This document shows, piece after piece, positions 1 through 12,138 of a stretch of 14,503 bases of DNA (position 1 is the first letter of the stretch; each line of letters begins with the position of its first letter). The stretch is from contig JADHTT010000005.1 in NCBI GenBank assembly GCA_016784825.1, positions 1-14,503 on the forward strand, read 5' to 3'. This stretch comes from Campylobacterales bacterium (lineage in GTDB: Bacteria > Campylobacterota > Campylobacteria > Campylobacterales > Arcobacteraceae). The position numbers and the translations under genes are program-made. A model generated the notes under the pieces. That model was given only the letters and a program-made list of their open reading frames with translations. It ran no database searches and had not been told where the DNA came from.

Positions 1-122
1 CGTCCATCTATATTACCAATGAATAAAAGAAAGAGCAACACTAAGGCTATAATTAATTTCTTATTTAATTCTTTTTCAAGAATATCCTTTTTTTGTATAT
101 TTGTATCTTTAAAAGAAGCCAT
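1..122 (-). CDS. Partial small membrane protein of cassette 3
   Basis: This is the N-terminal 40 codons of an open frame that leaves the window at its left edge. It starts at the ATG at 122..120, two bases after the TAA of the upstream gene (125..355), so the two are probably translated as an operon. The visible part has a polar, lysine-rich N-terminus (MASFKDTNIQKKD...) and then a hydrophobic stretch at about residues 24-36 (IIALVLLFLLFIG), which looks like one membrane segment with a cytoplasmic N-terminus. I recognise no family. By position it belongs to integron cassette 3. Function unknown; the frame and the TM segment are what is seen, the rest is inference. Confidence 0.5.
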   Translation of the reverse strand, partial: MASFKDTNIQKKDILEKELNKKLIIALVLLFLLFIGNIDG

Positions 123-124
123 CT

Positions 125-355
125 TTATATATCCCAAATTGAAATATTTGTTTTAAGTACATTATCAAGTGCTTCATTTAGATAAATAAAAGATTGCATT
201 TTGTTTACTTTTTCTCTTTCTTCTCCAATATCTAAATTTGGTGTTCCTAAAAATACTTTGTATCCTGTTGTGAATTTTAAGATACTTAAATGTCCATCTG
301 TTTTTTCTTTAGCTAATAACTCAGCCTTTTCTAGTAGTGTTTGTAAATCGTTCAT
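125..355 (-). CDS. Small hypothetical protein, first gene of cassette 3
   Basis: A 76-residue soluble protein with no signal peptide or membrane segment. The start is supported by an AAAGGA Shine-Dalgarno sequence a few bases before the ATG. Residues 1-20 look helical and charged (DLQTLLEKAELLAKEKTDG). A central part with aromatic and glycine residues follows (HLSILKFTTGYKVFLGTPN) and then another helix. This resembles small single-domain proteins often carried by integron cassettes and phages, but I cannot name a family. It is the first gene after the attC site at 561..692 and is read in the same direction as all other cassette genes. A TAA followed after two bases by the next ATG links it to the truncated membrane protein at 1..122. 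Confidence 0.6.
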   Translation of the reverse strand: MNDLQTLLEKAELLAKEKTDGHLSILKFTTGYKVFLGTPNLDIGEEREKVNKMQSFIYLNEALDNVLKTNISIWDI

Positions 356-560
356 GATTTTCCTTTAAATTTATTTACCATAATAGGTATATATAAATTT
401 AAAGAATTTTTATATTTTCAGAAATTTTGATTAAACTTTTTTAAAAAGTTTTGAGCCAATCACTTAAAAACAAAATATTTAATGATGGTTTGATTTGTAG
501 AGTTTCCCTTAAGCAAGATTTATTTTACAGTTTCATTGCCATCATATCTTTAAAACTTAA
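356..560. other. Cassette 3 leader, no gene seen
   Basis: About 200 bases with no credible ORF on either strand. Going down the - strand from attC there are only a few-codon frames. There is a 9-bp perfect inverted repeat at 433..441/443..451 (AAACTTTTT/AAAAAGTTT), which could be a weak terminator or chance in AT-rich DNA. An AT-rich stretch around 380..395 (TATATATACCTATTATGG on the - strand) may be the promoter of the gene at 125..355. Nothing else is recognisable. Confidence 0.4.
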
Positions 561-692
561 ATATAACGTTTGAAGTGAACTACAAGATGGTATCACTTCA
601 GAAATATTTGAAACTTAATTAAATTTTCTTTACAAATTAAAAGCTCGAATTATCGCAAGTGTAATCTTGTTAGTTCCTCTGATTTGTTGTAT
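561..692 (-). other. attC recombination site of cassette 2
   Basis: A 132-bp imperfect palindrome downstream of the TA pair. On the - strand it opens with the R'' box ATACAAC (692..686) and closes with GTTATAT (567..561), the hybrid R' box shared with cassette 3. Inside, AACTAACAAGAT (675..664) pairs with ATCTTGTAGTT (588..578) except for one unpaired A, as expected for an extrahelical base of a folded attC. The terminal region continues with CACTT/AAGTG pairs (594..598/657..661). The length resembles Vibrio-type long attC sites more than 59/60-bp ones. The R'' box is the exact complement of GTTGTAT, the R' box rebuilt from the start of cassette 2. Confidence 0.88.
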
Positions 693-697
693 CTGCC

Positions 698-982
698 TTA
701 CCTAGTAGGTTTATTTCTATTAAATATTCGTAAAACCTCAATTAAATCTTTTTCAAAATTTACTTTATAATTTATAGTATAACCTTTATATGTCATATCT
801 CTTATATTTTCATTTTTAAAATATATTGATTGTCTGTATTTAAATGGATTATTTGGGATTAAAAATATCAATTCCTCAAGTTCATTAGCAAAATTTATAC
901 TCGCTCCAACTTTATCTTTTGCTATATAGTTTACAATTTGTAATAATTGGTTTTCAAAAGTTTTTTTATAACTAATTTGCAT
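698..982 (-). CDS. RelE/ParE-family toxin
   Basis: A 94-residue protein with the pattern of the RelE/ParE toxin superfamily: an N-terminal helical pair (FENQLLQIVNYIAKDK, about residues 9-24; a second helix around 30-45), the proline-arginine turn NNPFKYRQS (44-52), then strands (IRDMTYKGYTINYKV, about 60-74; LIEVLRIFNRNKP, 80-92). Members act either as mRNA interferases or as gyrase poisons. The IF.R..P ending and R..TYKGY strand lean to the ParE side, but the target cannot be decided here. The ATG follows the antitoxin stop codon with no gap (TAAATG), so the pair is translationally coupled, antitoxin first. The stop lies 5 bp before the attC R'' box. Confidence 0.85.
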   Translation of the reverse strand: MQISYKKTFENQLLQIVNYIAKDKVGASINFANELEELIFLIPNNPFKYRQSIYFKNENIRDMTYKGYTINYKVNFEKDLIEVLRIFNRNKPTR

Positions 983-1225
983 TTAGTTTAGTGTTTTTAA
1001 ATGATTGTTTATATTTTTCCATAAGTCATTATGTGAAATCATTTCAGCAGTTCCACTTTCAACTTCTTGTAAATCTTGTTCTAATTGTTGTTGTCTTTCA
1101 TAAAAATATGGGTCTTGTTCTAAATTTTTATCTTTTTGAAGTTGAACTTTATCTTTATAATGCTCAATAATAGTTAAAAAATCTTGAACAAAATTATCTT
1201 GAATATTTACTGTTAATGTTTGCAT
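983..1225 (-). CDS. Antitoxin of the cassette 2 TA pair
   Basis: An 80-residue acidic, glutamine-rich protein directly upstream of the ParE/RelE-type toxin, which is the typical order for a type II antitoxin. The N-terminus (MQTLTVNIQDNFVQDFLTII) is compatible with a short strand followed by a helix, as in small DNA-binding dimerisation domains. The middle part (YERQQQLEQDLQEVESG, about 42-58) is a charged helix and the C-terminal tail (MISHNDLWKNINNHL) resembles toxin-embracing tails in this class. AAGGA at 1237..1233 is a good Shine-Dalgarno seven bases from the ATG. A -10 box and a 13-bp inverted repeat lie just upstream and are the obvious place for autoregulation. Antitoxin assignment is by position and general pattern. 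Confidence 0.72.
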   Translation of the reverse strand: MQTLTVNIQDNFVQDFLTIIEHYKDKVQLQKDKNLEQDPYFYERQQQLEQDLQEVESGTAEMISHNDLWKNINNHLKTLN

Positions 1226-1253
1226 GATAAAATCCTTACTGTAAATTAACTGA

Positions 1254-1290
1254 ATTATATCAAAACTTAAGTGAAATTCACTTAAGTTTT
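1254..1290 (-). promoter_or_regulatory. TA promoter with palindromic operator candidate
   Basis: A perfect inverted repeat with 13-bp arms (1262..1274 and 1278..1290, core AAAACTTAAGTG) and a 3-nt loop lies two bases upstream of a perfect -10 box on the - strand (TATAAT, 1259..1254). The antitoxin ATG is 28 bp further. A palindrome overlapping the -35 region of a TA promoter fits an operator for the antitoxin-toxin complex. It could also end transcription from the DUF2188 gene as an AT-rich hairpin, but no U-run follows directly. Confidence 0.55.
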
Positions 1291-1294
1291 AAAT

Positions 1295-1525
1295 TTAACC
1301 TTTTGGTGGATATGGGTCATTACCATGACTATCTTTTGCAGATATTTTCCCATCTTTATTATGTATTGTTAATTCTGTATTTTGATTTTGACTGATTGTT
1401 CTTGCTCTATCAGTAGCTTCTTTTTTTGTATCAAAGTGTCCTGATGACCTTTGACCACCACTTTGCTTTATATCCCAGCCACCTTTTTCTTTGTTTGGAA
1501 CTACATGTGTACTTTTTGTCGCCAT
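1295..1525 (-). CDS. DUF2188 domain protein
   Basis: A 76-residue protein that matches the DUF2188 pattern along its whole length: a strand with a V.PNKE.GGWD.K..G motif (about residues 8-23), the FDTKKEA..RAR helix (31-42), then a strand and an ending rich in D, G and P (DSHGNDPYPPKG, 65-76). The fold resembles a small beta-beta-alpha-beta unit; no biochemical role is established to my knowledge. AGGAGG lies a few bases before the ATG and overlaps the end of the preceding gene region (stop at 1544..1542), so the two were probably co-transcribed. DUF2188 genes are common in plasmids and integron cassettes, which fits this place. Confidence 0.85.
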   Translation of the reverse strand: MATKSTHVVPNKEKGGWDIKQSGGQRSSGHFDTKKEATDRARTISQNQNTELTIHNKDGKISAKDSHGNDPYPPKG

Positions 1526-1541
1526 AACTTCCTCCTATTTT

Positions 1542-1966
1542 TTATTGACCATACATTTTTAGTCCTGTTCCGTAGGGATTATTAGGACTATCACTTTTAT
1601 ACTTGCTACCTGCACCATAAGGATTATTTATACTATCTGGTGAATATTTACTTCCATATCTGCCGTATGGATTTGATACTGAATCTGGATCATATTTATT
1701 GCTACTTAGCTTACCTCTGTAATTTCCTTGTGAATCATAAAGTTTTGGTGCATTTGTTGCGTAAGGATTATTTGCAGATTATTACTATACTTACTGCCAT
1801 ATTGTCCGTATGAGTTGTTTATACTATTTGAACGATATTTACTTCCTGAACCATACTTATTATTTGACGAGTTCGCTCCGTATGGATTACTGCTATAATT
1901 ACCTAAGTAGTCGCCACCTAATAATATTGATGTTAAAAATATAACTCCAACAACTGTCTTTTTCAT
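1542..1966 (-). pseudogene. Frameshifted exported NPYG-repeat protein
   Basis: The frame from the ATG at 1966 begins with a signal-peptide-like start (MKKTVVGVIFLTSILLGG) followed by repeats such as SSNPYG, NKYGSGSKY and YGQYGSKYS. It then leaves the repeat pattern at about 1780 (after KYSNN) and stops at 1706. In another - strand frame the pattern resumes at once (SANNPYATNAPKLYDSQGNY, then several SxNPYG.YGSKYS.DS units) and ends GTGLKMYGQ with TAA at 1544..1542. The span of 425 nt is one short of 142 codons, so a single missing base near 1778..1780 (AATAATCTGC on the - strand) explains the break. Proteins of this type, with an NAPKLYDS segment between NPYG repeats, occur widely as small secreted proteins of unknown function. 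It is either a genuine frameshift or a sequencing error. Confidence 0.75.
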
Positions 1967-2010
1967 TTTATAAATCCTGTTAATAGTTGCTGAAATTTCT
2001 ATACATATAG

Positions 2011-2141
2011 ATACAACAGTTGAGTTAAGTTACAAGGCGTTTTACTACTTAAAAGTTAGTATTGTGTAGAAACTTTATTTTTAAGTAAAAGCTAAAATTT
2101 ACCGCAGTATAGCCTTGTTAAATTTCTACGATTTGTTATGT
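2011..2141 (-). other. attC recombination site of cassette 1
   Basis: A 131-bp imperfect palindrome. On the - strand R'' is ACATAAC (2141..2135) and the closing hybrid R' is GTTGTAT (2017..2011). TAACAAGGC (2120..2112) pairs with GCCTTGTA (2038..2031) leaving one unpaired A, the same kind of extrahelical base as in the other site. The loop region can pair further (TTTTAC/GTAAAA and TTAAAA/TTTTAA around 2040..2054 and 2079..2090). R'' overlaps the toxin stop codon (TAA at 2138..2136). R'' is the exact complement of GTTATGT at 3857..3851, the R' rebuilt from the start of cassette 1. Confidence 0.88.
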
Positions 2142-2426
2142 CCTGCCTTGTAAGTTTATTGGATTTCTACTAGTGTGAAATATAGCTAATATCATAATTA
2201 CATCTTCATATTGTTCATATATTACAATATAAGGAAACTTATCCATCAAAACTTTTTGTGATGTTTTTGTTTCATATTGATATAAATTTGGAAAGTCTAA
2301 TATTTTATTAAATGTTAAATCTAAATGATGAATAAACTTTTCTTTTAGATTTAAATCTATTTTAAAATAATGGCTTAATGCTTCTTGCAAATCCTCTTCC
2401 GCTTTTGGATGTAGTTTAATATTCAT
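2136..2426 (-). CDS. RelE/ParE-family toxin
   Basis: A 96-residue protein with the superfamily pattern: a starting strand then PKAEEDLQEALSHYFKID (about residues 7-24, the A..DL.EA..YY-like helix), a second helix (KFIHHLDLTFNKILDFP, 30-46), and the C-terminal strands KFPYIVIYEQYEDVIMILAIFHTSRNP (63-89), where FPY.V.Y and the ILA.FH..R.P ending are typical of ParE-like plasmid toxins. The start follows the antitoxin stop after two bases. Its TAA lies inside the attC R'' box, so gene and recombination site are fused with no spare sequence. Its sequence is clearly different from the cassette 2 toxin, so the two pairs are not recent duplicates. Confidence 0.85.
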   Translation of the reverse strand: MNIKLHPKAEEDLQEALSHYFKIDLNLKEKFIHHLDLTFNKILDFPNLYQYETKTSQKVLMDKFPYIVIYEQYEDVIMILAIFHTSRNPINLQGRT

Positions 2427-2428
2427 TA

Positions 2429-2671
2429 TTATCTTGAAATATCACTTTTAACCTTATTCCATGAACGACCTATTGATGGGTTATTGTGAAATGATAAAAT
2501 TCTTGAATTTAGTTCTTCTTTTTGTTTAATCGAAAGTTCTAAACTATTTTGATTTATTTCAAAATCTTTTATATTATTCTCTACAATAAATTTTAAAGCT
2601 CTTATAATTTCATCTTTTGAGTGATTAAAAAATTGCTCTATCTTTGGTTCTTGTATTGATAATTGCATCAT
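2429..2671 (-). CDS. Addiction-module antitoxin (PF09720-like)
   Basis: An 80-residue protein whose C-terminal half (about 45-79: LELSIKQKEELNSRILSFHN, then NPSIGRSWNKVKSDI) fits the 'unstable antitoxin / addiction module component' pattern, in which a helix with L.RL..~~..NP is followed by W..V...I. The N-terminal half has a helix-rich stretch (SKDEIIRALKFIVENN). It precedes and is coupled to the ParE-like toxin. Two ATGs in tandem (2671 and 2668) are possible; GAGGAG (2683..2678) is seven bases from the first, which is preferred. A TATTAT -10 box and an imperfect inverted repeat upstream suggest that the pair has its own autoregulated promoter. Confidence 0.8.
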   Translation of the reverse strand: MMQLSIQEPKIEQFFNHSKDEIIRALKFIVENNIKDFEINQNSLELSIKQKEELNSRILSFHNNPSIGRSWNKVKSDISR

Positions 2672-2690
2672 GATAAGCTCCTCAACTCTA

Positions 2691-2734
2691 ATAATACAAT
2701 AATAACATATTTTTTTGAATATATGATAATATTG
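2691..2734 (-). promoter_or_regulatory. TA promoter with imperfect palindrome
   Basis: Two 14-nt arms, CAATAATAACATAT (2697..2710) and ATATGATAATATTG (2721..2734), match as inverted repeats at 12 of 14 positions. They directly abut a TATTAT -10 candidate (2696..2691, - strand) upstream of the antitoxin. The layout mirrors the other TA pair (palindrome, then -10 box, then Shine-Dalgarno), which supports a role as operator. AT-rich composition weakens the case. Confidence 0.45.
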
Positions 2735-2740
2735 ATATTT

Positions 2741-3358
2741 TTATTTTATATGACATTGTAAAATATTTTCATTTTTAAAATTAAATATTTGATTTCCCAG
2801 TTTTAAAAAAATTGTGTTATATTTTATATTGTCTTTATTTTCAATAAGATATTTTGATAAATTAATAGTAACCATATCAATATCAAGTGTAGCTCTAGTT
2901 TCTGAATGCACTAATAAAATATTTTCATTAAATTTTTTATAACTATCAAATTTTTTTATTTTTTTAGAAATTGCATTAACAATATCATTTAAAACTTTTT
3001 CTTCTAATTCGTAACCTTTATACGGTCTTCCAATTAACTTGTCTTTTGATTTATTCAAAAGATTAATAATTTCCTGTTTTGACATTTGCTCATCTTCAAA
3101 TAAAGTTGGGCAAATTGATGTGTTATTAAACTCTGTATCTCTGATAAAACTTACTTTTTGCATATTTTGGTCTAATGCTCTTGTAATTTCTATACCAATT
3201 GTATTTTTGCAATCACCAATAATAAAATCTGGACTTTCTGATTTTGTTATTGTGATCTTGTCATAATTTAATTGTAGCATTTTATAACAATTATCGAGTA
3301 ATAACTTTATTAGATGATTTTCAATTCTATCTTTAGTCCATTCTTTACTTGATACCAT
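2741..3358 (-). CDS. Possible PD-(D/E)XK nuclease-fold protein
   Basis: A 205-residue soluble protein. Residues 41-59 (ESPDFIIGDCKNTIGIEIT) form the kind of PD-x(n)-(I/V)E(I/V)x motif found in PD-(D/E)XK nuclease-fold proteins: D44 and E57 would be metal ligands, and T59 stands where the catalytic Lys usually is. An earlier acidic residue (E13) in the first helix fits the N-terminal Glu of this fold. The rest is lysine-rich helices and a strand around 145-153 (ENILLVHSE) as in similar small cassette-borne proteins. The start overlaps the lipoprotein gene by 14 bp, so the two are coupled. It may be a nuclease with a defence or mobile-DNA role, but the missing Lys and lack of a recognised family leave this open. 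Confidence 0.5.
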   Translation of the reverse strand: MVSSKEWTKDRIENHLIKLLLDNCYKMLQLNYDKITITKSESPDFIIGDCKNTIGIEITRALDQNMQKVSFIRDTEFNNTSICPTLFEDEQMSKQEIINLLNKSKDKLIGRPYKGYELEEKVLNDIVNAISKKIKKFDSYKKFNENILLVHSETRATLDIDMVTINLSKYLIENKDNIKYNTIFLKLGNQIFNFKNENILQCHIK

Positions 3359-3854
3359 ATTTTTCTTTTATTGATTTAATAATAAAATTCGCTTCATAGA
3401 CAATAGTATTGTTTTTTGGTTTTTCTTTAAAACATATTATCGTATTGTTTGTACTTGGTTTTGATATATTATATGTTTGACCACCATATGTTCTTGTATT
3501 TGCTGAACCATAAAAAGTATTTCCATAAACATTACCATTTATATTTGTATGTGAGCGAGTTGGTGTAGTATATGTACTATTTCTAGTATAGTTTTCTGAA
3601 TTTGTAATAATAAAATATTTATAACCATTTTTCAAACTTAATTCTGCTGACCTTAACAATGTAAAATCTGCTGTTCTTTGTCTTGATGTAAAACCATTTC
3701 CTCGAAAAGATACATTGAAAACATTATTACCTAATCTTGTTTCTGTATATCCACCAGTGAATCCTGTTGATTGATATTTTGTAGCACAACCACTAAATAT
3801 AAATACCGCTATTACTAAAATCATCCATTGTCGTATATTGTCTCCTTTTGACAT
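3345..3854 (-). CDS. CC0125/CC1285-family-like lipoprotein
   Basis: A 169-residue protein with an N-terminal hydrophobic stretch (MILVIAVFIFSGC, residues 11-23) ending in a lipobox-like FSGC with C23 as the predicted lipidated cysteine. The mature part starts ATKYQSTGFTGGYTETRL and continues with VSFRGNGFTSRQ..ADFTLLRSAEL.L..GY.YFII, the characteristic pattern of the CC0125/CC1285 family of small envelope lipoproteins of unknown function. The middle (about 91-132) is rich in N, T, G and Y. The ATG sits within the attI/cassette junction (GTTATGT, 3857..3851) and no Shine-Dalgarno is visible before it. An AAAGGAG lies inside the frame at codons 3-5 and is 16 bases from the in-frame ATG of residue 11, too far for a normal start. 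It would be driven by a promoter on the attI side. Confidence 0.78.
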   Translation of the reverse strand: MSKGDNIRQWMILVIAVFIFSGCATKYQSTGFTGGYTETRLGNNVFNVSFRGNGFTSRQRTADFTLLRSAELSLKNGYKYFIITNSENYTRNSTYTTPTRSHTNINGNVYGNTFYGSANTRTYGGQTYNISKPSTNNTIICFKEKPKNNTIVYEANFIIKSIKEKYGIK

Positions 3855-3857
3855 AAC
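3851..3857 (-). other. attI crossover point (GTTATGT)
   Basis: On the - strand the heptamer GTTATGT fits the integron core site G^TTRRRY at its first four positions. The cut falls between 3857 and 3856, so cassette 1 begins with TTATGT. The exact complementarity to the R'' box of cassette 1's attC (ACATAAC, 2141..2135) shows that this is the junction. The rest of attI lies between here and intI, but its integrase-binding repeats cannot be delimited by eye. Confidence 0.75.
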
Positions 3858-4060
3858 TATTTATTGTACATACATTATATATCAAACACCCTAAAAATCA
3901 TCAAATAGTATAACACTTTAAATGTATGATATTGAAAATGCTACAAAGCCTATAAATAAGTCATTCTTACAAAATATTACTAAAAAGTATTGCAATTTGA
4001 CATATTTTTTAAAGAAGTTATTCAATTAAGGTATAGTTTTAATATTGGACTAATAAGGTA
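3858..4060. other. attI region and divergent promoters
   Basis: This stretch between cassette 1 and the intI leader holds no ORF. It should contain attI proper and the promoters. On the + strand a TATAGT box at 4032..4037 with a weak TTAAAG at 4009..4014 (17-bp spacer) is a candidate intI promoter. A perfect TTGACA at 3997..4002 has no -10 box at normal distance. No LexA-type site was found. Confidence 0.4.
3874..3904 (-). promoter_or_regulatory. Candidate cassette promoter Pc
   Basis: Reading toward the cassettes, a perfect TATAAT (3879..3874) lies 19 bp after TTGATG (3904..3899), 20 bp upstream of the lipoprotein start. The spacer is longer than ideal, but a strong -10 box alone is usual in Campylobacterota. 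The position just outside the attI crossover is that expected of Pc, which would transcribe the first cassette. Confidence 0.5.
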
Positions 4061-4101
4061 TGTCCGTAATAGTCAATCATAATGTATTACTATTACGGAC
4101 A
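4061..4101. repeat. 13-bp inverted repeat in the intI leader
   Basis: TGTCCGTAATAGT (4061..4073) and ACTATTACGGACA (4089..4101) are perfect inverted repeats around a 15-nt spacer, 46 bp before the intI start. They are less AT-rich than their surroundings. No U-run follows, so this is not a terminator. An operator for intI or a leader hairpin that limits its translation is likely; an old transposon end is also possible. Confidence 0.6.
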
Positions 4102-4147
4102 AAATCTTAATAGTATAGCAAAACGATAGATACACTTTGGAGATAAA

Positions 4148-5110
4148 ATGGCAAAAAAATTATTAGAAATGGTTAGAGATAAAATTAGATTTAAACACTA
4201 TAGTATTAGAACAGAGCAAGTTTATTTATCTTGGATAAAAAGATATATTTTATTTCATAATAAAAGACATCCAAAGGATATGGGAAAAATTGAGATTGAA
4301 CAATTTTTAACTCATTTAGCTATTGATAATCATGTGAGTCCAACTACTCAGAATCAAGCATTTAACGCAATTTTATTTTTATATAAAGAAATTTTAAATA
4401 TACCTATGCAAGACCAAAATATTCAAGCCTTAAGAGCTAAACAAAAGAAGCATATACCTGTTGTATTAAGTATCAACGAGGTGAAGCAAATTATTTTAAA
4501 TATGAATGGACTTTATCAAGTAATGTTAAAACTTATGTATGGTTGTGGACTACGGATGAATGAACTATTAAATCTTAGAATAAAAGACATAGATTTTAGC
4601 TATGATAAAGTTTATATTTGGGATAGTAAATCACAAAAAGATAGAACTGTACCGTTACCATTAAAAATAAAAGATGAGTTAAAAATTCAAATCAAAAAGG
4701 TCAAAGAGATACACCAACAAGATATAGATAATGGATATGGAACAGTTGAATTACCATATCAACTTAATAAAAAATATCCTAAAGCCAAATATGAAACGAA
4801 ATGGCAATATATTTTTCCTATGAATAAAGTATCTAAAGACCCAAGAAGTGGTACAATACGAAGACATCATATTTTGGAAGTTACATTTTCTAGAAATATA
4901 AAAAATGCTGTAAAAAAATGTACTATTGATAAAAAAGTATCTGCACATATCTTTAGACATTCTTATGCAACTCATTTACTGCAAACTGGAACTGATATTA
5001 GAAGTATACAAGAGTTACTAGGTCATAAATCTATTGAAACTACTATGATATACACCCATGTTGTAAAAGAATTAAATAAAGATGATATTAAATCACCTTT
5101 AGATTTTTAA
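4148..5110 (+). CDS. intI: Integron integrase (tyrosine recombinase)
   Basis: A 320-residue tyrosine recombinase that inserts and excises cassettes by attC x attI or attC x attC recombination. The N-terminal core-binding domain (about 1-90) has the IntI-like pattern R.KHYSIRTEQVYLSWI..YI.FH....P..MG. The catalytic domain shows the Arg box CGLRMNELLNLR (R136), box II HIFRHSYATHLLQTGTDIR (H267, R270), LGHKSIETT (H293) and the nucleophile Y302 in MIYTHV. Between them, about residues 190-235, is the extra segment that distinguishes IntI from XerC/D, with KWQYIFP (W219) and DPRSG.IRRHH. Length matches the family and all catalytic residues are present, so it should be active. GGAG a few bases before the ATG supports the start. 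It is transcribed away from the cassettes, the classical integron layout. No LexA box was found; regulation may depend on the inverted repeat at 4061..4101. Confidence 0.95.
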   Translation: MAKKLLEMVRDKIRFKHYSIRTEQVYLSWIKRYILFHNKRHPKDMGKIEIEQFLTHLAIDNHVSPTTQNQAFNAILFLYKEILNIPMQDQNIQALRAKQKKHIPVVLSINEVKQIILNMNGLYQVMLKLMYGCGLRMNELLNLRIKDIDFSYDKVYIWDSKSQKDRTVPLPLKIKDELKIQIKKVKEIHQQDIDNGYGTVELPYQLNKKYPKAKYETKWQYIFPMNKVSKDPRSGTIRRHHILEVTFSRNIKNAVKKCTIDKKVSAHIFRHSYATHLLQTGTDIRSIQELLGHKSIETTMIYTHVVKELNKDDIKSPLDF

Positions 5111-5165
5111 AGCTTTTAATTCAAACTTAAATATAATATCAAAATTACAAAAGGAAACTATAGAT

Positions 5166-5543
5166 TTGATTCAAAAAAAACCACTTAATGAAAAAGCTTT
5201 ACGACTTAGATACATCAGAGCCTTAGAAAAGTTTGCCAAACGAGCAATCAATCTATTAAAAGCACCAGAAGAAGATTTTCACTTTGAAAAATTTAAAAAA
5301 AAGATGCATGAAAACTTTGAATTTGTAGAAAAAGTAGAAGCAGTTAGACTTGATAGTGGTTATATGTCAAAGCTTCAAGATTATGTAAATCTTATCTTAG
5401 GTACTTTGGATAATCATTCTAAAGACTTTGAAGATGAAAAATCTATGCTTTTAAAAGAAGCAAACCTACTACACAAAGAAAAAAATAAAAATATCTATAA
5501 AAAAGACAAACACTCAAAACACAAATTCAATGATGGATATTAA
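5166..5543 (+). CDS. Small charged hypothetical protein
   Basis: A 125-residue protein with a likely TTG start at 5166: no ATG exists until about codon 47, AAGGA lies at 5151..5155 (10-nt spacing), and a perfect TATAAT at 5132..5137 could start its transcript. It is mostly helical and highly charged (RLRYIRALEKFAKRAINLLK at 13-32; FKKKMHENFEFVEKVEAVRL) with a lysine/histidine-rich tail (NKNIYKKDKHSKHKF), which suggests nucleic-acid binding. It ends 7 bp before the RecD2-like helicase and is probably co-transcribed with it. I recognise no family. It is the first backbone gene after the integron. Confidence 0.65.
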   Translation: MIQKKPLNEKALRLRYIRALEKFAKRAINLLKAPEEDFHFEKFKKKMHENFEFVEKVEAVRLDSGYMSKLQDYVNLILGTLDNHSKDFEDEKSMLLKEANLLHKEKNKNIYKKDKHSKHKFNDGY

Positions 5544-5550
5544 TAAATAA

Positions 5551-7830
5551 ATGTCAAATAAAAAACAATTTAATCTTACTGGTGTAATCAAAAAAGTATT
5601 ATATACAAATGCTGAAAATGGCTACTGTATAGCTGTACTGGAAAATGATCAAAAGATTTGTGGAAATTACTTTGATGCAGATATTGAAAAGCTTGTAGGT
5701 GTTGATATTATTATGACTGGTGATTGGACTACTCACAAAAAGTATGGTTCACAGTTTGAGTTTGTCACACTTGAAGTTCAAGAAGCTGAACTATACTTCT
5801 TTTTGACAAAGATTGTAAAAGGTGTAGGTAAAGCTGTAGCAAAATCTTTACTAGATAAATTTAGTGAAGAAGAGCTAATAGATATACTTGATAATGATCC
5901 AAATAGATTATTAAAAGAAAAAGGTATCAAAGAGAAAAAGTTATCTACTATTGTAAAATCATGGCAAAAGTTTAAGCATATGAGAGAGCTTGGTTCGTAT
6001 CTATCTAAATATGGAGTATCTAGCAATCTAATTTCTAAAATATTTGAAATATTTGGTGCAGTTGAAAATATGGTGGATAAAATAGAAGAAAATCCATATA
6101 TACTAACCAAGATAAAAGGTATAGGCTTTAAAAAAGCAGATGAAATAGCCAAAGCAATAGGTATAGACCACAAAAGTCAATTTAGAATATCTGCATGTCT
6201 AAATTTTATTTTAGATGAGTATTGTAATTCAAACGGAAATAGCTCTATAGGTAAAGAGAAGATGTTTATGCTTCTAGATGATGCACTAAACTTTGAAAAT
6301 GAAAATAGACTATATGAGAATACTTTAAATCATATGGTAAGACATAGTGAAATATTTAAAACTACTCAGCATAGATATTCTCCTGGTATGCTTTATCATG
6401 CAGAAAAAAATATAATAGATTTTTTTGAAAAAAGACAAAAATCACCAAAAAATATTATTATCAAAGATTTTGATACATATATCACTAAGAAAGAACAAAC
6501 ATTAGGATTTACACTAAGTGAGGAGCAAAAGAACGCTGTATCACTTATAAATGATGGGAATAATACTCTGATGCTTGTTGGTTATGCTGGTACAGGTAAA
6601 TCTACATCAAGTAGGGCACTATTAGAGCTTCTAGAAGAGGTTTATGGCTATGATGAGATACATTGTATAGCTTTAAGTGGAATTGCCTCTCAGCGTATTA
6701 GTGATACTACAGGATACAAAAGTAGTACTATTCAGTCACTATTGCTTAGTGCTGCTGAAAAAGACTATTTAGACTACAAGGTAGTATTGTTAGATGAAGC
6801 ATCTATGGTAAATTCAGTTATGTTTTATCAAGTGATCTCAAAAATCAAAGATGATACGGTATTTATAATAGTAGGTGATGATGGACAGCTACCAGCTATT
6901 GGAGCAGGGGATGTATTAGCGGATGCTATGAAATATGAGCTTGCCCCTGTATGTAAGCTTACGAAAATATATAGACAAAATGAAAATCAAGCAATAGCAA
7001 CCATTGCAAATGAGATTAGGTGTGGTCAAGTACCAGAGTATAAAAAATCTTATGATGATTTTAAATTTGAAGATGTTTCAATCGACAATTATTATTCTAC
7101 AAAAGCAACAGCAAGTGCAAATGAACTATCTAATATTAGAGGCTCAAATACAGATAATATATTAAACTCTATCTTAAATATCTCGAGTAATTATCTTAAA
7201 GATGCCTATAGACTAATCAAAGAGAAAGAAATATCAAAATTTCTTACACTATTTCAGGTAATCACCCCTATGAAAAGTGGGCTACTTGGTGTAGAAAATT
7301 TAAATATACAACTTCAAAAGCTATTTAATTCAAATAGAGGTGCTAGTGTAAAAACTCGACTTTATGAATATAAACTAGCTGACAAAGTTATCCATATCAA
7401 AAATACAAATATGAAAGCTCAAACTATGCAAATGTATAGAGATAATAGTATTGATTTTCTTGAAAAGCGTATATTTAATGGTCAATTAGGGATGATAATC
7501 AAGCTTGATTTTGAAGAGTCAAAGGCTGTGATACTATATCCAAATGATGATACTGTGGTATTTTATGATTTTGATGAGCTTCAAAATTTAATCTCACTTG
7601 CATACTGTCTTACTATTCACAAAACTCAAGGTATGGAGTATGACACAGCACTGATACCTATGACATTTAGCCATTTTATCATGCATAATACAAAGCTATT
7701 GTATACAGCAATCACTAGAGCTAAAAAGATGTGTTATGTAGTTGGTGAAGATGAAGCCTTTGCAACTGCTTGTAAGCGTATTGAAACTACTAAGCGTCGT
7801 ACAGTAATGCAAGATCTTTTAGGTAAATAG
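5551..7830 (+). CDS. recD2: RecD2-like superfamily 1B DNA helicase
   Basis: A 759-residue ATP-dependent 5'-3' DNA helicase of the RecD2/TraA type. The N-terminus (about 8-75, TGVIKKVLYTNAENGYCIAV...) is the OB-like domain of RecD2, followed by helix-hairpin-helix segments (KGVGKAVAKSLLDKF near 90; ILTKIKGIGFKKADEIAKAI near 184-203). Helicase motifs: Walker A GYAGTGKS (344-351), Walker B VVLLDEAS (411-418), motif III VGDDGQLPAIGAGD (441-454), IYRQ (473-476), the late motif LTIHKTQGMEYD (687-698) and LLYTAITRAKK (716-726). This order and the length fit RecD2 proteins that work without RecBC in DNA repair and replication-fork processing. The start at 5551 is kept by the short gap to the upstream gene. 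No clear Shine-Dalgarno is seen, so coupling is possible. rnpB begins about 30 bp after its stop. Confidence 0.92.
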   Translation: MSNKKQFNLTGVIKKVLYTNAENGYCIAVLENDQKICGNYFDADIEKLVGVDIIMTGDWTTHKKYGSQFEFVTLEVQEAELYFFLTKIVKGVGKAVAKSLLDKFSEEELIDILDNDPNRLLKEKGIKEKKLSTIVKSWQKFKHMRELGSYLSKYGVSSNLISKIFEIFGAVENMVDKIEENPYILTKIKGIGFKKADEIAKAIGIDHKSQFRISACLNFILDEYCNSNGNSSIGKEKMFMLLDDALNFENENRLYENTLNHMVRHSEIFKTTQHRYSPGMLYHAEKNIIDFFEKRQKSPKNIIIKDFDTYITKKEQTLGFTLSEEQKNAVSLINDGNNTLMLVGYAGTGKSTSSRALLELLEEVYGYDEIHCIALSGIASQRISDTTGYKSSTIQSLLLSAAEKDYLDYKVVLLDEASMVNSVMFYQVISKIKDDTVFIIVGDDGQLPAIGAGDVLADAMKYELAPVCKLTKIYRQNENQAIATIANEIRCGQVPEYKKSYDDFKFEDVSIDNYYSTKATASANELSNIRGSNTDNILNSILNISSNYLKDAYRLIKEKEISKFLTLFQVITPMKSGLLGVENLNIQLQKLFNSNRGASVKTRLYEYKLADKVIHIKNTNMKAQTMQMYRDNSIDFLEKRIFNGQLGMIIKLDFEESKAVILYPNDDTVVFYDFDELQNLISLAYCLTIHKTQGMEYDTALIPMTFSHFIMHNTKLLYTAITRAKKMCYVVGEDEAFATACKRIETTKRRTVMQDLLGK

Positions 7831-7845
7831 ATTAAGAACAAATTA

Positions 7846-7851
7846 GATAAT
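7846..7851 (+). promoter_or_regulatory. Candidate rnpB -10 box
   Basis: GATAAT lies in the 29-bp gap between the helicase stop and rnpB, 8-9 bp before the predicted RNA 5' end. A clear -35 box is absent, which is common in AT-rich Campylobacterota promoters. It would give rnpB its own transcription, separate from the helicase. Confidence 0.4.
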
Positions 7852-7859
7852 ATTACACT

Positions 7860-8182
7860 TAAGGTACAACAGACAATAGCTTGATAGCAATATCAAGAGG
7901 AAAGTCCGGGCTACAGTGAAGTATGGTTCCATTTAAAGAATGGCTAGGGTAACCTAAGGGATAGTGCAACAGAAAGTAAACCGCCTTTTTTAAGGTAAGG
8001 GTGAAACGGTGAAGTAAGAGCTCACCAGGTCTTTGAGTAATCATTGATGCTATGTAAACCCAACCAGTAGCAAGAAGAGAGTGGTAAAACTTCACATTTT
8101 TCCTCTTCGCACGACTGCTAGAGTAATCTAGGAGCTAGATAAATTATTGTCCTCGACATGACGCGGCTTACGTTGTGCCTTA
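7860..8182 (+). ncRNA. rnpB: RNase P RNA
   Basis: The catalytic RNA of ribonuclease P, which removes 5' leaders from tRNA precursors. Conserved blocks appear in the right order: GAGGAAAGTCCGGGCT (7897..7912), an AGTGCAACAGA.AGTAAACCGCC block near 7963..7986, GGGTGAAACGGTG...AAGAGCTCACCAG near 7998..8030, a TGTAAACCCAACC block near 8053..8066, and the 3' ACATGACGCGGCTTACG (8156..8172). The ends pair as helix P1: AAGGTACAAC (7861..7870) with GTTGTGCCTT (8172..8181), one G-U pair, with one more U-A pair outside. The length is normal for a bacterial type A molecule. Its 3' end overlaps the stop codon of the convergent cca gene. Any frame read across it is not a gene. Confidence 0.97.
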
Positions 8183-9376
8183 TTTCAAATACTTTTTCAC
8201 AATACCAATATTATAGTTATGTATATGCTGTTTAATCACTTCGGGTTCTGGCACTTTAGATTTTTTATATTGAATATCTATCCAAGCTTTTGGACTATAT
8301 TGTGCTATATCATCAAATATATTTAATAATAATTCTTCATCTAGATTTTCTGTAGTATCTATTGCTATACGACCTTGGTTATCTGCATTGGCAATTATAA
8401 TAAGATCTATTAGAAGCTGTCTATCTTTTCTAAAGCTTTCAAAAAATGTAGCTATTTTAGATGCTTTCATTGTAAATAAAATATATATTTTTATATGATT
8501 TTCTATTAAAAACAACATTCTTTTTGTTAGTTTAGTAGGTAGTTGCATATCAATTAGTGGTAAAACTAATTTTCTTTGCTCATGTCCTGCTGAATCACCA
8601 TCTGTCCTATAGCATATAGGCTTTGCAATATCATGATAAATAGCAGTTAGTTTTTGCAATGGAGAACCATTGGATATATTTTTTAGCATCTGCATTGTAT
8701 GTTCAAATACATTTGCTTCAAGATGATATTTTGATCCCTCTTTTAAAGTTGTAAGCTCATATATTGATGGGAAAATATCTTCCAAAACTCCAAGTTCAAA
8801 TAGTGTCTCAAAAAAGATATGGCTATTATCTAGTTCTAAAACTTTTGATACTTCTTTATATACTCTATCTGGCTGTAGATGTTTTAATTCATCTTTCATA
8901 CTATATACTAATACTTTTGTATCTCTATATATCTTCCATTCATAGCCATATCTAGCCCTAAGTCTAGCAAGCCTAAGTACTCTTATGGGGTCTTCTACGA
9001 AAGCTTGAGATGTATGTCTTAGTATCTTTTTTTCTATATCTTTTTGACCACCATATGGGTCTATAATAATATTTAATTCCTCATCAAAAGCTATACTATT
9101 TATAGTAAGATCTCTTCGTTCTAAATCTTGCCTTAATGTTATATCTTCAGTATCTACGCTAAATCCCTTGTATCCGGTACTTACTTTCTTTTCAGTTCGT
9201 GCAAGAGCTAGTTCATCACCATCTTCTGTAATAAATACAGGGAAATCTTTTCCAACTTGTTTAAGATATGAAAAATCATCTTGAGTATATCCTACGGCTA
9301 CATAGTCTTTATCACTAGTTTCGTACCCAAGAAGCTTGTCTCTAACGGCTCCACCAACTAAGTAAATCTTTTTCAT
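8180..9376 (-). CDS. cca: CCA tRNA nucleotidyltransferase with HD domain
   Basis: A 398-residue class II enzyme that adds or repairs the CCA end of tRNA using CTP and ATP, without a nucleic-acid template. The N-terminal head has GGAVRDKLLG (8-17) and the metal-binding carboxylates D22/D24 in SDKDYVAVG, followed by RRDLTINSIA (87-96) and EDPIRVLRLARLRARYG (128-144), as in the E. coli type. An HD-type phosphohydrolase domain follows (H226 in VFEHTMQML, H248-D249 in YHDIAKP), so it is the multifunctional form. Length is close to the E. coli protein (about 412). Its ATG overlaps the stop of the SprT-like gene (TAATG), making a translationally coupled operon. The 3' end is antisense to the last three bases of rnpB, another tRNA-maturation gene. 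Confidence 0.92.
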   Translation of the reverse strand: MKKIYLVGGAVRDKLLGYETSDKDYVAVGYTQDDFSYLKQVGKDFPVFITEDGDELALARTEKKVSTGYKGFSVDTEDITLRQDLERRDLTINSIAFDEELNIIIDPYGGQKDIEKKILRHTSQAFVEDPIRVLRLARLRARYGYEWKIYRDTKVLVYSMKDELKHLQPDRVYKEVSKVLELDNSHIFFETLFELGVLEDIFPSIYELTTLKEGSKYHLEANVFEHTMQMLKNISNGSPLQKLTAIYHDIAKPICYRTDGDSAGHEQRKLVLPLIDMQLPTKLTKRMLFLIENHIKIYILFTMKASKIATFFESFRKDRQLLIDLIIIANADNQGRIAIDTTENLDEELLLNIFDDIAQYSPKAWIDIQYKKSKVPEPEVIKQHIHNYNIGIVKKYLK

Positions 9377-9867
9377 TAGTATAAAAACTCCAACTTCCCT
9401 AATACAATATCATCATGCTTAACAAATCTATCACATTTTTTACCTTCTAGATCAAGGCATATCTTTTGCCATTTTAAAGTATGACCGCCATTTTCTTTTG
9501 TAAAGTCTCTAAATACAAACATCAAAGCATGAGCATATTCATGGGGTAATACATAATCAATCATATAGTCACTACTCTCTTGAAATCTATTTTTATTCAA
9601 AATAATTTTAATAGAATTTTGATCATATACAGCTAGACCAAATAAGTTATCTTTTATTTTATCTGAAATGATAATTGGTATATTAATATTTTTATTATAC
9701 TTTTGAACTATTAGTTTTTGAATATGGTATTCTTTTTGCTTTAATTTAGTTTGTATCTCAAGTGGTAGTTCTTTACCATCATATTTACTATTATTGTATG
9801 ATATTACCATTAGTAAGACCATTGATATAGCTACAACAGCTGTAAATATTCTAAATATATTTTTCAT
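9376..9867 (-). CDS. Membrane-anchored SprT-like metallopeptidase
   Basis: A 163-residue protein with an N-terminal membrane anchor or uncleaved signal (about residues 4-23, IFRIFTAVVAISMVLLMVIS) and a SprT-like zinc peptidase domain. LPHEYAHALMF (107-117) carries the HExxH ligands H109 and H113 and the catalytic E110. GGHTLKWQKIC (127-137) supplies the third ligand H129, the order seen in SprT-like proteins (HExxH...GH...W). C-terminal cysteines (C137, C145) might form a small zinc or disulfide site. The membrane anchor suggests an extracytoplasmic domain, unlike cytoplasmic SprT. The start lies within the upstream gene (17-bp overlap) and the stop overlaps the cca start by one base. Substrate unknown. 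Confidence 0.75.
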   Translation of the reverse strand: MKNIFRIFTAVVAISMVLLMVISYNNSKYDGKELPLEIQTKLKQKEYHIQKLIVQKYNKNINIPIIISDKIKDNLFGLAVYDQNSIKIILNKNRFQESSDYMIDYVLPHEYAHALMFVFRDFTKENGGHTLKWQKICLDLEGKKCDRFVKHDDIVLGKLEFLY

Positions 9868-10255
9868 AATATTTATAATTTTTGTAATAGTTTATTATAT
9901 GTGTGATTTGCCATATCAAAGTAGCAAATACAAAATACATAAACCATAAAGATATCATACCTATAAAACCACCTTCATAATAAAAATCAACAACTTGGAA
10001 TATCAATAAAAAGACTAATGTTGATTGAAGTGGTACTTCGTCTATATTTTGTATATACGCAACTATTTCAAAGTTTTGTAGTTTCTTTTTAAAGTACCAT
10101 AGCACTGGTAAACTTACAATATTTAGTATGATGATAATATATTCATCTAATATAATTTGAACTATTTTATTAACTGGTAAAAATATATAATATACTATAG
10201 CTATAAATATTATACTGCCTATAAGTGAATGTAGTGTTTTGATATTTGAATTCAT
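9851..10255 (-). CDS. Four-helix membrane protein of unknown function
   Basis: A 134-residue protein with four hydrophobic segments (about 9-26, 33-54, 78-91 and 96-120) and a lysine/tyrosine-rich C-terminal tail (NYYKNYKYYEKY). It is the first gene of the - strand operon with the SprT-like peptidase and cca, overlapping the peptidase by 17 bp. I recognise no family. A peptidase partner or regulator role would be guesswork from position only. A perfect TATAAT sits just upstream (10267..10262), leaving little room for a Shine-Dalgarno before the ATG; GATAT precedes the start, so initiation may be weak or the transcript nearly leaderless. Confidence 0.65.
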   Translation of the reverse strand: MNSNIKTLHSLIGSIIFIAIVYYIFLPVNKIVQIILDEYIIIILNIVSLPVLWYFKKKLQNFEIVAYIQNIDEVPLQSTLVFLLIFQVVDFYYEGGFIGMISLWFMYFVFATLIWQITHIINYYKNYKYYEKYI

Positions 10256-10261
10256 ATATCA

Positions 10262-10290
10262 ATTATACCAAAATAAGCTAATTTTGGCTA
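10262..10290 (-). promoter_or_regulatory. Operon promoter with palindrome in the spacer
   Basis: On the - strand, TATAAT (10267..10262) is preceded by a near-perfect 20-bp palindrome centred on AGCT (10268..10287; outer arms CCAAAAT/ATTTTGG, 18 of 20 positions symmetric). It fills the space between the -10 box and the -35 position, where a repressor could act. The MITE-like element begins about 13 bp further upstream. Confidence 0.5.
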
Positions 10291-10302
10291 AAATATCCTA
10301 TA

Positions 10303-10568
10303 GGGCACCTCTAAAAATTAATATTATTCATAGAAGGAGAAAATAAACTTGAGATTTTGACTAATAAATTTTTCAAGCTACCCGTAGGTAACTTTAAAAA
10401 TTTTTAGGTGAAATATCTGTTTAGTTTCCCTTCCCGTTGGGCTTTGTATACTTTTTGATATATTACGTTATATCGTTTCGTATTACCTACGGGTAGGACT
10501 TCAACTCATAGCCTTATATATCAAAAAGTATACTAAAGCTATGAATGTATTAGTTTTTAGAGATGCCC
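10303..10568. mobile_element. MITE-like element with long terminal inverted repeats
   Basis: A 266-bp non-coding element. The left end, GGGCACCTCTAAAAATTAAT continuing to 10333, and the right end (10539..10568, reverse complement starting GGGCATCTCTAAAAACTAAT) match over about 30 bp with two substitutions and one indel. Both ends are bordered by TATA, a possible target duplication, although TATA is self-complementary and may belong to the repeat. Inside are further inverted pairs: 10333..10348 with 10419..10433; CTACCCGTAGGTA at 10378..10390 with its complement at 10484..10496; and an 18-bp perfect pair at 10446..10463 and 10516..10533. There is no transposase frame, so it would depend on a full-length relative; the ends look like those of some IS5-type elements, which is a guess. 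It fills the 307-bp gap between two divergent genes. Confidence 0.72.
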
Positions 10569-11876
10569 TATATACACAAGGAATATATTATAAATACATT
10601 TACAAAATTAAATTTAAATCAAAATATTATTAAAGCTATAGAGAATCAAGGGTATGAACATCCTACTAAAATACAAAGAAAAGTAATACCAATTGCTATT
10701 AAAGGTATAGACCTTATAGCAGCATCAAAATCAGGTACAGGTAAAACTGCATCATTTGTATTACCAATGCTAGATAGAATATCAAAAATGATTAAACCTG
10801 ACAATAGAGTATTGCGTGGCCTTATTGTAGTACCTACAAGAGAGCTTGTAGATCAAATTTCAGTAGCACTTGATGCATATGGAAAGTTCTTAAAAGTTAG
10901 ACATACAAAGATTCAAGGTGGTATTAGTAGAGGTTCACAAGTTGGTAAACTATCTACAGGAATTGATATCATTGTAGCAACACCTGGTAGATTAAAAGAT
11001 ATGATCAAAGAAGAGATTATTGATGTATCTAGTGTAAATATGATTGCTTTAGATGAAGCAGATACTATGCTAGAGCTTGGTTTTTTAGAAGAGATAGAAT
11101 ATATCTTTGCTCACTGTAGTCCAAAGCGTCAAATCATGATGTTTTCAGCTACTATTTCTCAAAATATCAAAAAACTAGGTAAAGAATTTTTACATGATCC
11201 TGTTTCTGTAGCAGTATCAGATAGAAGAGATGTAGTTACACTAATTGAGCATAGAGCTATTAAAGTTGATAAAAAGCGTAAAGATGAACTTTTAGCACAT
11301 ATTATCAAAAATGATAACTTTGAACAGATACTTGTATTTGTAAATATGAAAGAGACTGCTGATACGGTAACTAGTTATTTACAAAAAAAAGGTATCAAAG
11401 CTGTTGGATTACATGGTGATATTGAGTATAAACAAAGAACACAAAATATTAAACATTTTAGATCTAAAAAAGCTCAAGTATTAGTAGCAACTGATGTAGC
11501 TGGACGTGGTATAGATATCAAAGAGTTACCACTTGTAATAAATTATGATCTACCAGAAGAGACAGATGAATTTACACATAGAGTAGGTCGAACAGGTAGG
11601 GCAAACAAAAAAGGTATTGTAATTACAATACTTACTACTACTGAATATAATAAGTTTACTAAAGTTGAAAGAAACCTAAAGCTTAGTATCAAAAGAGAAG
11701 TATTAGAAGAGTTTGAACTAAAAGATAGACAACCAAGACAAAAACAACAAAAGAAAAAATCTCTTAGTCAAAAGTTAGGTTTAAAAGCTCCAAAGAAAAA
11801 AGATGAAAACTCTGGTAAAAAAAGATCTAAAAAAACGACTAAAAGAGATGCAAATAGAGTCTTTAGAAAAAGCTAG
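10563..11876 (+). CDS. DEAD-box ATP-dependent RNA helicase
   Basis: A 437-residue RNA helicase, likely for ribosome assembly or mRNA unwinding in the cold. Motifs: Q motif TKIQ (about 36-39), motif I SGTGKT (57-62; preceded by SK rather than the usual QT), PTRELVDQ, GG pair in QGGIS, TPGRL, DEAD (164-167), SAT (195-197), the C-terminal lobe with VATDVAGRGIDI and HRVGRTGR (339-346). A lysine-rich tail (about 388-437) should bind RNA. The only ATG/GTG/TTG upstream of motif I in this frame is the ATG at 10563, which lies inside the right terminal repeat of the MITE-like element; the frame is closed by TAG at 10551. A better Shine-Dalgarno (AAGGA, 10578..10582) lies 3' of it, before ATT/ATA codons, hinting that the original start was lost or is non-canonical. 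Confidence 0.9.
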   Translation: MPYIHKEYIINTFTKLNLNQNIIKAIENQGYEHPTKIQRKVIPIAIKGIDLIAASKSGTGKTASFVLPMLDRISKMIKPDNRVLRGLIVVPTRELVDQISVALDAYGKFLKVRHTKIQGGISRGSQVGKLSTGIDIIVATPGRLKDMIKEEIIDVSSVNMIALDEADTMLELGFLEEIEYIFAHCSPKRQIMMFSATISQNIKKLGKEFLHDPVSVAVSDRRDVVTLIEHRAIKVDKKRKDELLAHIIKNDNFEQILVFVNMKETADTVTSYLQKKGIKAVGLHGDIEYKQRTQNIKHFRSKKAQVLVATDVAGRGIDIKELPLVINYDLPEETDEFTHRVGRTGRANKKGIVITILTTTEYNKFTKVERNLKLSIKREVLEEFELKDRQPRQKQQKKKSLSQKLGLKAPKKKDENSGKKRSKKTTKRDANRVFRKS

Positions 11877-11889
11877 GTACAATTAATAT

Positions 11890-12138
11890 ATGAAGATATT
11901 TGAAGAGTTAAATTTAAAAGTTGATAGCTTAATAGAGGAAAATACTCACCTAAAAGGTGAGGTATTATCATTGCGTTCTACTAATGATGCACTATTGAAA
12001 AGAAGTGAAGACATGCTTTTAAGTATAGATGAAACTTTATCAAGTATTACTATTAAAAGTTTGGATTCTAAAGATGAAGATGATTTTGAACTAGATATAG
12101 ACATATCAGATATTATGGATGAGATTAATGGAAAATAA
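11890..12138 (+). CDS. Small coiled-coil protein
   Basis: An 82-residue acidic protein. Residues 1-50 show heptad-like leucines (FEELNLKVDSLIEENTHLKG then EVLSLRSTNDALLKRSEDML), consistent with a coiled coil, and the C-terminus is strongly acidic (SKDEDDFELDIDISDIMDEI). It begins 13 bp after the DEAD-box helicase and overlaps the next gene by 11 bp. Size and shape recall small division or structural proteins of the ZapB sort, but this is only a resemblance; no family is recognised. Confidence 0.6.
   Translation: MKIFEELNLKVDSLIEENTHLKGEVLSLRSTNDALLKRSEDMLLSIDETLSSITIKSLDSKDEDDFELDIDISDIMDEINGK

Follow-up and report, generated by a model that had tools for sequence, protein, structure and literature searches.

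Candidate composite cassettes in a Campylobacterota integron: cargo genes joined to a terminal toxin–antitoxin pair

Toxin–antitoxin (TA) pairs carried as gene cassettes stabilize chromosomal integrons (PMC11023631, PMC8876359, PMC11551772), and they bring promoters of their own or use cassette-borne ones (PMC11023631, PMC8876359), as these papers state. Cassettes generally contain one open reading frame (ORF), some two or none, and some of the two-ORF cassettes are TA pairs, according to a figure legend in PMC8618304. How mostly unexpressed cassettes are retained is a question raised in PMC11023631, for which that paper offers the dispersal of TA cassettes through the array as the answer. Here we analyse a stretch of 14,503 nucleotides (nt) from a Campylobacterales bacterium (assembly GCA_016784825.1, contig JADHTT010000005.1, positions 1 to 14,503; hereafter the window), in which two integron cassettes each join leading genes, termed cargo, to a TA pair that ends at the recombination site attC. 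Judged by sequence comparison, this architecture recurs elsewhere, with a TA end that appears near-constant and cargo that appears exchangeable in one TA family at the least. With little better than even confidence, we favour the reading that these are composite, self-stabilizing cassettes consisting of modular cargo, an insulator/promoter element, a TA pair and attC.

Two cassettes closed by a toxin–antitoxin pair

The window contains a Campylobacterota integron whose cassettes read leftwards on the minus strand. An earlier interpretation made from the sequence alone (the sequence-only reading) had described two four-gene cassettes, each with a terminal TA pair. The ends, the attC sites and the ParE pairs bear this description out in its main points; however, only three of the four genes of cassette 2 are intact in the window copy, because its first cargo gene is frameshifted. 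Cassette 1 (2017–3856, minus strand, as are all cassette features given below) starts with GTTATGTC (3857–3850), which is the exact reverse complement, over 8 nt, of its own R'' box GACATAAC (2142–2135). This start was located by seeking a match to R'', and the 8-mer occurs as a single copy on the minus strand within 4147–2427, right at the first ORF. The cassette comprises cargo gene 1a for a CC0125/CC1285-family lipoprotein (3345–3854; NF047637, E = 4.6e-27), the first ATG of which lies within the R' core, cargo gene 1b for a 205-aa protein (2741–3358), a gap of 69 nt, the putative TA1 promoter region (2672–2740), antitoxin 1 (2429–2671), a ParE-family toxin 1 (2136–2426; PF05016, 6.1e-9) and attC1 (2010–2142), which has 117 nt between its R'' and R' boxes.

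The start of cassette 2 (567–2016), GTTGTATC (2017–2010), pairs with its own R'' GATACAAC (693–686) in a run of 9 nt. Cargo gene 2a (1542–1966) encodes a YGSKYS-repeat protein that is open over 1706–1966 and continues in another frame; the gene is intact in the related cassette of locus L075. It is followed by cargo gene 2b for a DUF2188 protein (1295–1525; PF09954, 1.7e-21), a second gap of 69 nt (1226–1294) with a palindrome (1290–1262) and a -10 box TATAAT (1259–1254), antitoxin 2 (983–1225), a ParE-family toxin 2 (698–982; PF05016, 1.4e-10) and attC2 (560–693). The contact between toxin and R'' that had been noted for both cassettes is real for toxin 1, the stop codon of which lies within R'', whereas toxin 2 stops 4 nt short of it. 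The two TA pairs differ from each other, as had been said. Both toxins belong to PF05016; in family searches antitoxin 1 was assigned weakly (Unstab_antitox, 5.1e-4, below the cut-off) and antitoxin 2 was not assigned. By its ParE toxin and adjacent small gene, each pair is by sequence a type II TA pair.

Cassette ends were assessed with an attC finder whose training set (63 of 80 seed sites, taken from Campylobacterota arrays) included neither window site. At a score of at least 14 it returned 120 sites when run along the array strand of 43 stretches (one or more in 34 of them) and none on the reverse strand; since the seeds came from the same arrays, these 120 sites are no independent test, the window sites excepted. 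attC2 scored 42.5 and attC1 15.4, which is low, yet not one reverse-strand site reached 14; both close their cassette at its 3' side with R''/R' boxes and have a foldable strand. An earlier, cruder attC search, which gave similar numbers of sites when the sequence was shuffled, was discarded. Among 86 attC-to-attC intervals, from which the attI-side cassette of each array (here cassette 1) was left out, 54 have a start that is complementary to their own R'' for 8 nt or more, versus 1.7% of cross-pairs; cassette 2 is counted among them with its 9 nt. The ends agreed over less than 7 nt in 24 intervals. Of the 62 with a match of 7 nt or more, 46 contain one ORF of 45 aa or more, nine contain two, one contains three, four contain four and two contain none. 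Window cassette 2 is one of the four-ORF intervals, and another (L053 6300) consists mostly of antisense ORFs.

The spacing between the attC boxes falls for the most part into two classes, with 52–62 nt in 91 of the 120 sites and 110–125 nt in 18; both window sites belong to the long class. Separately, a G+C-rich short inverted repeat (GTTATCCGCT...CGGATAAC) was seen at or near cassette junctions at seven separate sites in two genomes (L071 1177, 2927 and 9545; L093 97 and 2094; L162 119 and 1415); three further listed matches are overlapping loci and were left uncounted. L053 and L061, too, have cassette starts with GTTATCCGCT.

Recurrence of the TA end and probable exchange of cargo

Of 397 Campylobacterota genomes, 37 contain a match to antitoxin 2, and a toxin-2 relative adjoins it in 24 of the 25 loci retrieved. 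The finder scored an attC at the toxin end in L092, L093, L108 and L112, and in L090 and L105 the toxin is followed by GATACAAC with no finder-scored attC, so that these two were classed as cassette-type by that sequence alone. Together with the window and with L162 and L075, which came from a survey of ParE toxins, this gives nine cassette-type TA2 loci, in eight of which R'' is GATACAAC (in L108 it is TATACAAC). The cargo in front varies. L075 carries the same pair of leading genes as window cassette 2, both intact, and L090 a DUF2188 gene truncated by the contig end, whereas other cargo precedes the pair in L093 (three genes), L162 (one), L092 (two) and L112 (one broken ORF); L108 has no intact leading ORF, and the pair of L105 lies at a contig end. 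The start GTTGTATC occurs once 5' of the toxin in L075, L093 and L162 (6269, 1758 and 2317 nt searched, respectively) and sits at the junction in L075 and L093; the leader of L075 resembles that of the window.

Of 42 genomes scanned with PF05016, 41 of which have an integron integrase, whole or partial, 30 gave a total of 146 matches. The survey covered 110 of these; the remainder are weaker by E-value, plus one row (the YoeB toxin of L005) that was dropped as it started ahead of its locus. An attC stands at the toxin end of 12 of the 110. Five of these are of the TA2 type (L162, L075, L092, L093 and L112) and all five have leading genes, broken in L112; the other seven belong to other families. 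Outside this count, L005 7713–8874 has, between cassette ends that match over 8 nt, a gene that weakly matches HNH, then a small gene at the position of an antitoxin, and the YoeB toxin, which ends at attC. Candidate cases are L053 5197–6300 (leading ORFs with DUF4160 and DUF2442) and L051 (a 154-aa ORF with another TA pair). L148 was rejected as a further case of cargo with TA, as its start match could be chance. The labels GIY-YIG-like, Phd-like, MazEF and MNT-HEPN, as far as we apply them, denote a presumed likeness in sequence rather than family matches.

For TA1 the picture is narrower. Antitoxin 1 has matches in 8 of the 397 genomes, five of them strong, and a toxin-1 relative is next in all five. 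One of them, in a Sulfurimonas genome (L005/L083), is a TA1 pair alone in its cassette, with R'' GACATAAC, a scored attC at the toxin end and, in L083, the cassette start GTTATGTG preceded by a degenerate attC. Thus a TA pair that shares R'' and lacks the leading genes, for which the sequence-only reading had suggested a search, exists for TA1. In the other four strong relatives the finder detected no attC, and L084 has an R''-like stretch. The repeated way of building cassettes that had been proposed is supported by this solo TA1 cassette and by the TA2-type cassettes with other passengers (L093, L162, L092 and the broken L112). No four-gene unit that lacks attC was found in the genomes searched, and gap length in the TA2 type stays within 63–75 nt. 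Both window gaps are indeed exactly 69 nt long; this equality is not special, because in TA2-type loci the antitoxin is separated from the last leading gene by 70 nt in L075, 71 in L090 and L162, 68 in L093, 63 in L092 and, counted by hand, 75 in L112.

The window and L075 share 635 of 720 nt over the stretch that begins at the cassette start and closes with DUF2188, but 354 of 526 nt in the TA pair. With L090, the window shares 84 of 97 nt in the end of DUF2188 and 465 of 528 nt in the TA pair. The best breakpoint between the window and L075 is window position 1252 (chi-square 88.3; maximum 16.1 in 300 shuffles), which lies within the zone of identity drop (1227–1277), just past the palindrome and the -10 box. 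In a tree of TA2 pairs the window groups with L090; L075, for its part, joins L109, which lacks attC (both groupings are starred), and the eight cassette-type rows require four changes, at least two of them forced. L106 entered the tree with a short toxin frame, L108, L091 and L113 were left out as no whole toxin frame was detected in them, and L107 and L111 were not included. The tree is clearer evidence than the breakpoint: under the same cargo, the TA pair was probably replaced in one of the lines.

The palindrome of gap 2, AAAACTTAAGTGAATTTCACTTAAGTTTT, lies directly 5' of the -10 box and has 14-nt arms and a 1-nt loop; none of 400 shuffles reached it. The same form or a variant (repeat score 12–15) is present in seven of the nine cassette-type TA2 loci and in none of 16 attC-less ones tested (best score 9), of which L109 and L097 have a sequence that resembles one of its halves; three retrieved loci (L106, L107 and L111) were omitted from this test. 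Its arms covary across loci (CTTAAGTG, CTAAAGTG and GTTAAGTG). Folded as RNA, the seven palindrome loci give -13.2 to -16.6 kcal/mol, with -15.6 kcal/mol for the window, and one of two attC-less loci folded gives -8.8 kcal/mol. In L092 the same core (CTCAAGTGA/TCACTTGAG) also precedes the -10 box of another, unrelated TA pair, and L051 has a related form. We discarded the idea that the palindrome is merely the operator of the TA2 antitoxin, since it is absent from all 16 attC-less relatives tested and its core precedes an unrelated TA pair. It may be a binding site for a regulator; our preferred reading is that it acts as a terminator or insulator between the cargo and the TA promoter. A consensus scan for G+C-containing terminators over window positions 500–4200 found none. 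Ahead of the antitoxin, gap 2 and the majority of TA2 relatives have boxes resembling a -10 element; over positions 500–4200, however, a simple sigma-70 scan returned 30 sites versus 29.9 expected, that is, no excess. An inverted repeat ahead of a -10 box had been described for both gaps, and this stands for gap 2. The repeat of gap 1, in contrast, is reached by 62 of 400 shuffles and is not shared by any of the five TA1 relatives.

In two genomes a TA cassette is succeeded by a further pair, made up of an antitoxin-like gene (MQLQPNYIVD...) and a RelE-like toxin: in L092 as the next cassette, and in L051 at 945–1418. This pair has the same type of palindrome 5' of its -10 box, and in L051 the 154-aa ORF lies ahead of it. 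In L108, on the minus strand, a TA2 pair with palindrome and attC follows genes resembling rpsF, ssb and rpsR, names that we give on presumed sequence likeness; this unit may be a cassette that was inserted outside an array.

Integron setting and cargo genes

The cassette array adjoins the gene of the integron integrase IntI (4148–5110, plus strand; TIGR02249, 1.6e-125, above the cut-off), as expected of an integron. This family is above its cut-off in 34 of the 397 Campylobacterota genomes, and 36 integron regions were retrieved, a few of them with a partial integrase match only. A scan with IntI yielded 14 loci, 13 with titles of the Campylobacterota type and one titled Lysobacterales; the five closest, all in Campylobacterota assemblies, are 78–83% identical. 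Searches of viral contigs with IntI, antitoxin 2 and the gap-2 palindrome gave no relatives, a search of plasmids gave toxin-2 relatives in 18 Campylobacter records, all below 60% identity, and an Rfam scan of window positions 1–5200 gave no match. A perfect inverted repeat, TGTCCGTAATAGT / ACTATTACGGACA (arms 4061–4073 and 4089–4101), lies just 5' of intI and may regulate it. Nested inverted repeats at 10299–10572 (arms 10299–10323/10548–10572, 10378–10417/10457–10496 and 10443–10471/10508–10536) occupy the space ahead of an ORF at 10563 that looks like a DEAD-box helicase.

The 205-aa protein of cassette 1 belongs to no Pfam family and has 25 homologues, one identical and mostly on short contigs, in which the pattern ESPDF...G[IV]EIT is conserved. 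Across the 397 Campylobacterota genomes its gene has two weak partial matches, neither of which was accepted. Although confident (pLDDT 89.9), its structure model matched no PDB fold at E ≤ 0.001; Gabija GajA and Holliday-junction resolvases are among its weak hits. For the YGSKYS protein, taken in its intact L075 form, there are 3570 homologues, with Pseudohaliea and a deltaproteobacterium among the 120 matches listed, and matches in 3 of 357 Campylobacterota genomes, the sole strong one being the genome that supplied the query.

Proposed scheme, alternatives and known systems

In the scheme that we propose, the cassette terminates in a TA pair that reaches attC and would have a promoter of its own, with the cargo genes filling the space from the cassette start up to that promoter. 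Cassettes of the TA2 type usually have a terminator- or insulator-like palindrome that closes the cargo unit, with the -10 box of the TA pair directly next to it. Cargo and TA pairs would be swapped within cassettes by recombination independent of attC, which the boundary palindrome may favour, and IntI would then mobilize the whole unit. Loss of an excised cassette would poison the cell, and the cargo would be kept; from the known behaviour of TA cassettes, we take it that addiction to the TA pair probably protects the cargo. More tentatively, and with less than even confidence, we consider that these cassettes form a distinct self-stabilizing class, whose TA pair, held in place next to attC, would be a reusable chassis: cargo would be swapped in front of it, and TA pairs behind the cargo, at the conserved palindrome without attC, and silent cargo would be retained in the absence of selection.

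Several observations weigh against these proposals. The breakpoint peak is broad (74.9–88.3 across the positions shown, 1227–1277), so that the exact exchange point is not fixed, and part of the contrast between cargo and TA pair may reflect rate differences, because the third-codon-position value for the first part of YGSKYS (0.67) is near those of the TA pair (0.57 and 0.61), with 0.83 for DUF2188. In L075, L093 and L162 the GTTGTATC start was located via the complement of R'', which makes it weaker evidence than the starts in the window. GTTGTATC is absent upstream in the examined stretches of L092, L112, L108, L105 and L090; in L112 it is GTTGTACG that follows the upstream attC, and the leader there has TTCAGCAACTATTA in common with that of the window. 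L093 and L105 lack the palindrome, the toxin frame of L108 is split in two, and cargo gene 2a is frameshifted in the window. Of the seven ParE cassettes of other families, six are solo-like (three in L071, one each in L048 and L083, and a second in L162) and that of L148 is unclear. No solo TA2 cassette with a recognized start was found among the surveyed loci, and the order 'TA first, cargo later' thus hangs on one TA1 relative.

The unusual gene content could also have arisen by fusion, as the sequence-only reading had suggested, a cargo cassette and a TA cassette having merged by loss of the attC between them. This route is simple, and the 24 mismatched intervals are what lost or missed attC sites would yield; L005 9726–10800, with its degenerate attC 5' of the solo TA1 pair, provides an example, the ends of L112 agree over 6 nt only, and no matching start was found in the examined stretch of L092. 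Both window cassettes, however, have matched ends, and a matching 8-mer is present in L075, L093 and L162. Since fused ends would agree over at least 8 nt as rarely as cross-pairs do, the matched ends argue against fusion; in addition, the finder detects no attC in either gap, and 69 nt are too short for an attC of the long class. On this sequence evidence the window cassettes look native, and we regard attC loss as an unlikely origin for them, and fusion in general as distinctly improbable.

The combination might instead be neutral, TA pairs being common cassette genes that sometimes end up in multi-gene cassettes with no special function. Solo TA-like cassettes in similar arrays (L045, L065, L071, L048 and L083), the broken cargo gene 2a and two-ORF cassettes that have matched ends and no recognized TA pair (L045 2429, L056 5589 and L064 1436) are in line with this, whereas all five TA2-type ParE cassettes among the twelve have leading genes (one broken), R'' GATACAAC and a gap of 63–75 nt, and four of the five the palindrome. 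Such regularity in cargo, R'', gap and palindrome makes chance addition hardly likely, and we consider neutral hitchhiking improbable, if still the most plausible of the rivals. We give even less credence than to fusion to a joint defence module, in which the leading genes and the TA pair act together, for example against phages. The DUF2188 protein matches the PADLOC candidate PDC-S16 (2e-35), and the other cargo includes weak HNH (L005) and AAA (L093) matches, both below the Pfam cut-off; the motif of the 205-aa protein looks nuclease-like. Yet PDC-S16 is a candidate only, and one other PADLOC match at E ≤ 0.1 (0.023, weak) was found among ten window proteins. Moreover, cargo and TA appear to be exchanged independently, and a hairpin and a -10 box stand between them in most TA2-type loci.

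If TA pairs are bundled with cargo in single cassettes, as our composite reading holds, protection would act per cassette and would be carried with the cargo to new arrays; cassettes would then be remodelled internally by a route other than attC, at a testable boundary. We found no description of a cassette that unites other genes with a TA pair in the literature, including the accessible text of PMC2945992 and PMC3856429; subscription papers lay largely outside this search, which is no proof of absence. The TA pairs of Tn3-family transposons (PMC7157771) are likewise built into a mobile unit with passengers; they are moved by transposition, whereas here the unit would move by attC recombination. 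Two-ORF integron cassettes (PMC8618304) share with the present ones more than one ORF per attC, but here three to five genes are combined with a TA end. The closest described systems are the TA cassettes of Vibrio chromosomal integrons (PMC11023631, PMC11551772, PMC8876359), in which a TA pair in an attC cassette has its own promoter and stabilizes the array by killing on loss; the accessible text of these papers mentions no further cargo, whereas a Campylobacterota cassette of the present kind holds, with a single attC, one to three genes besides the TA pair.

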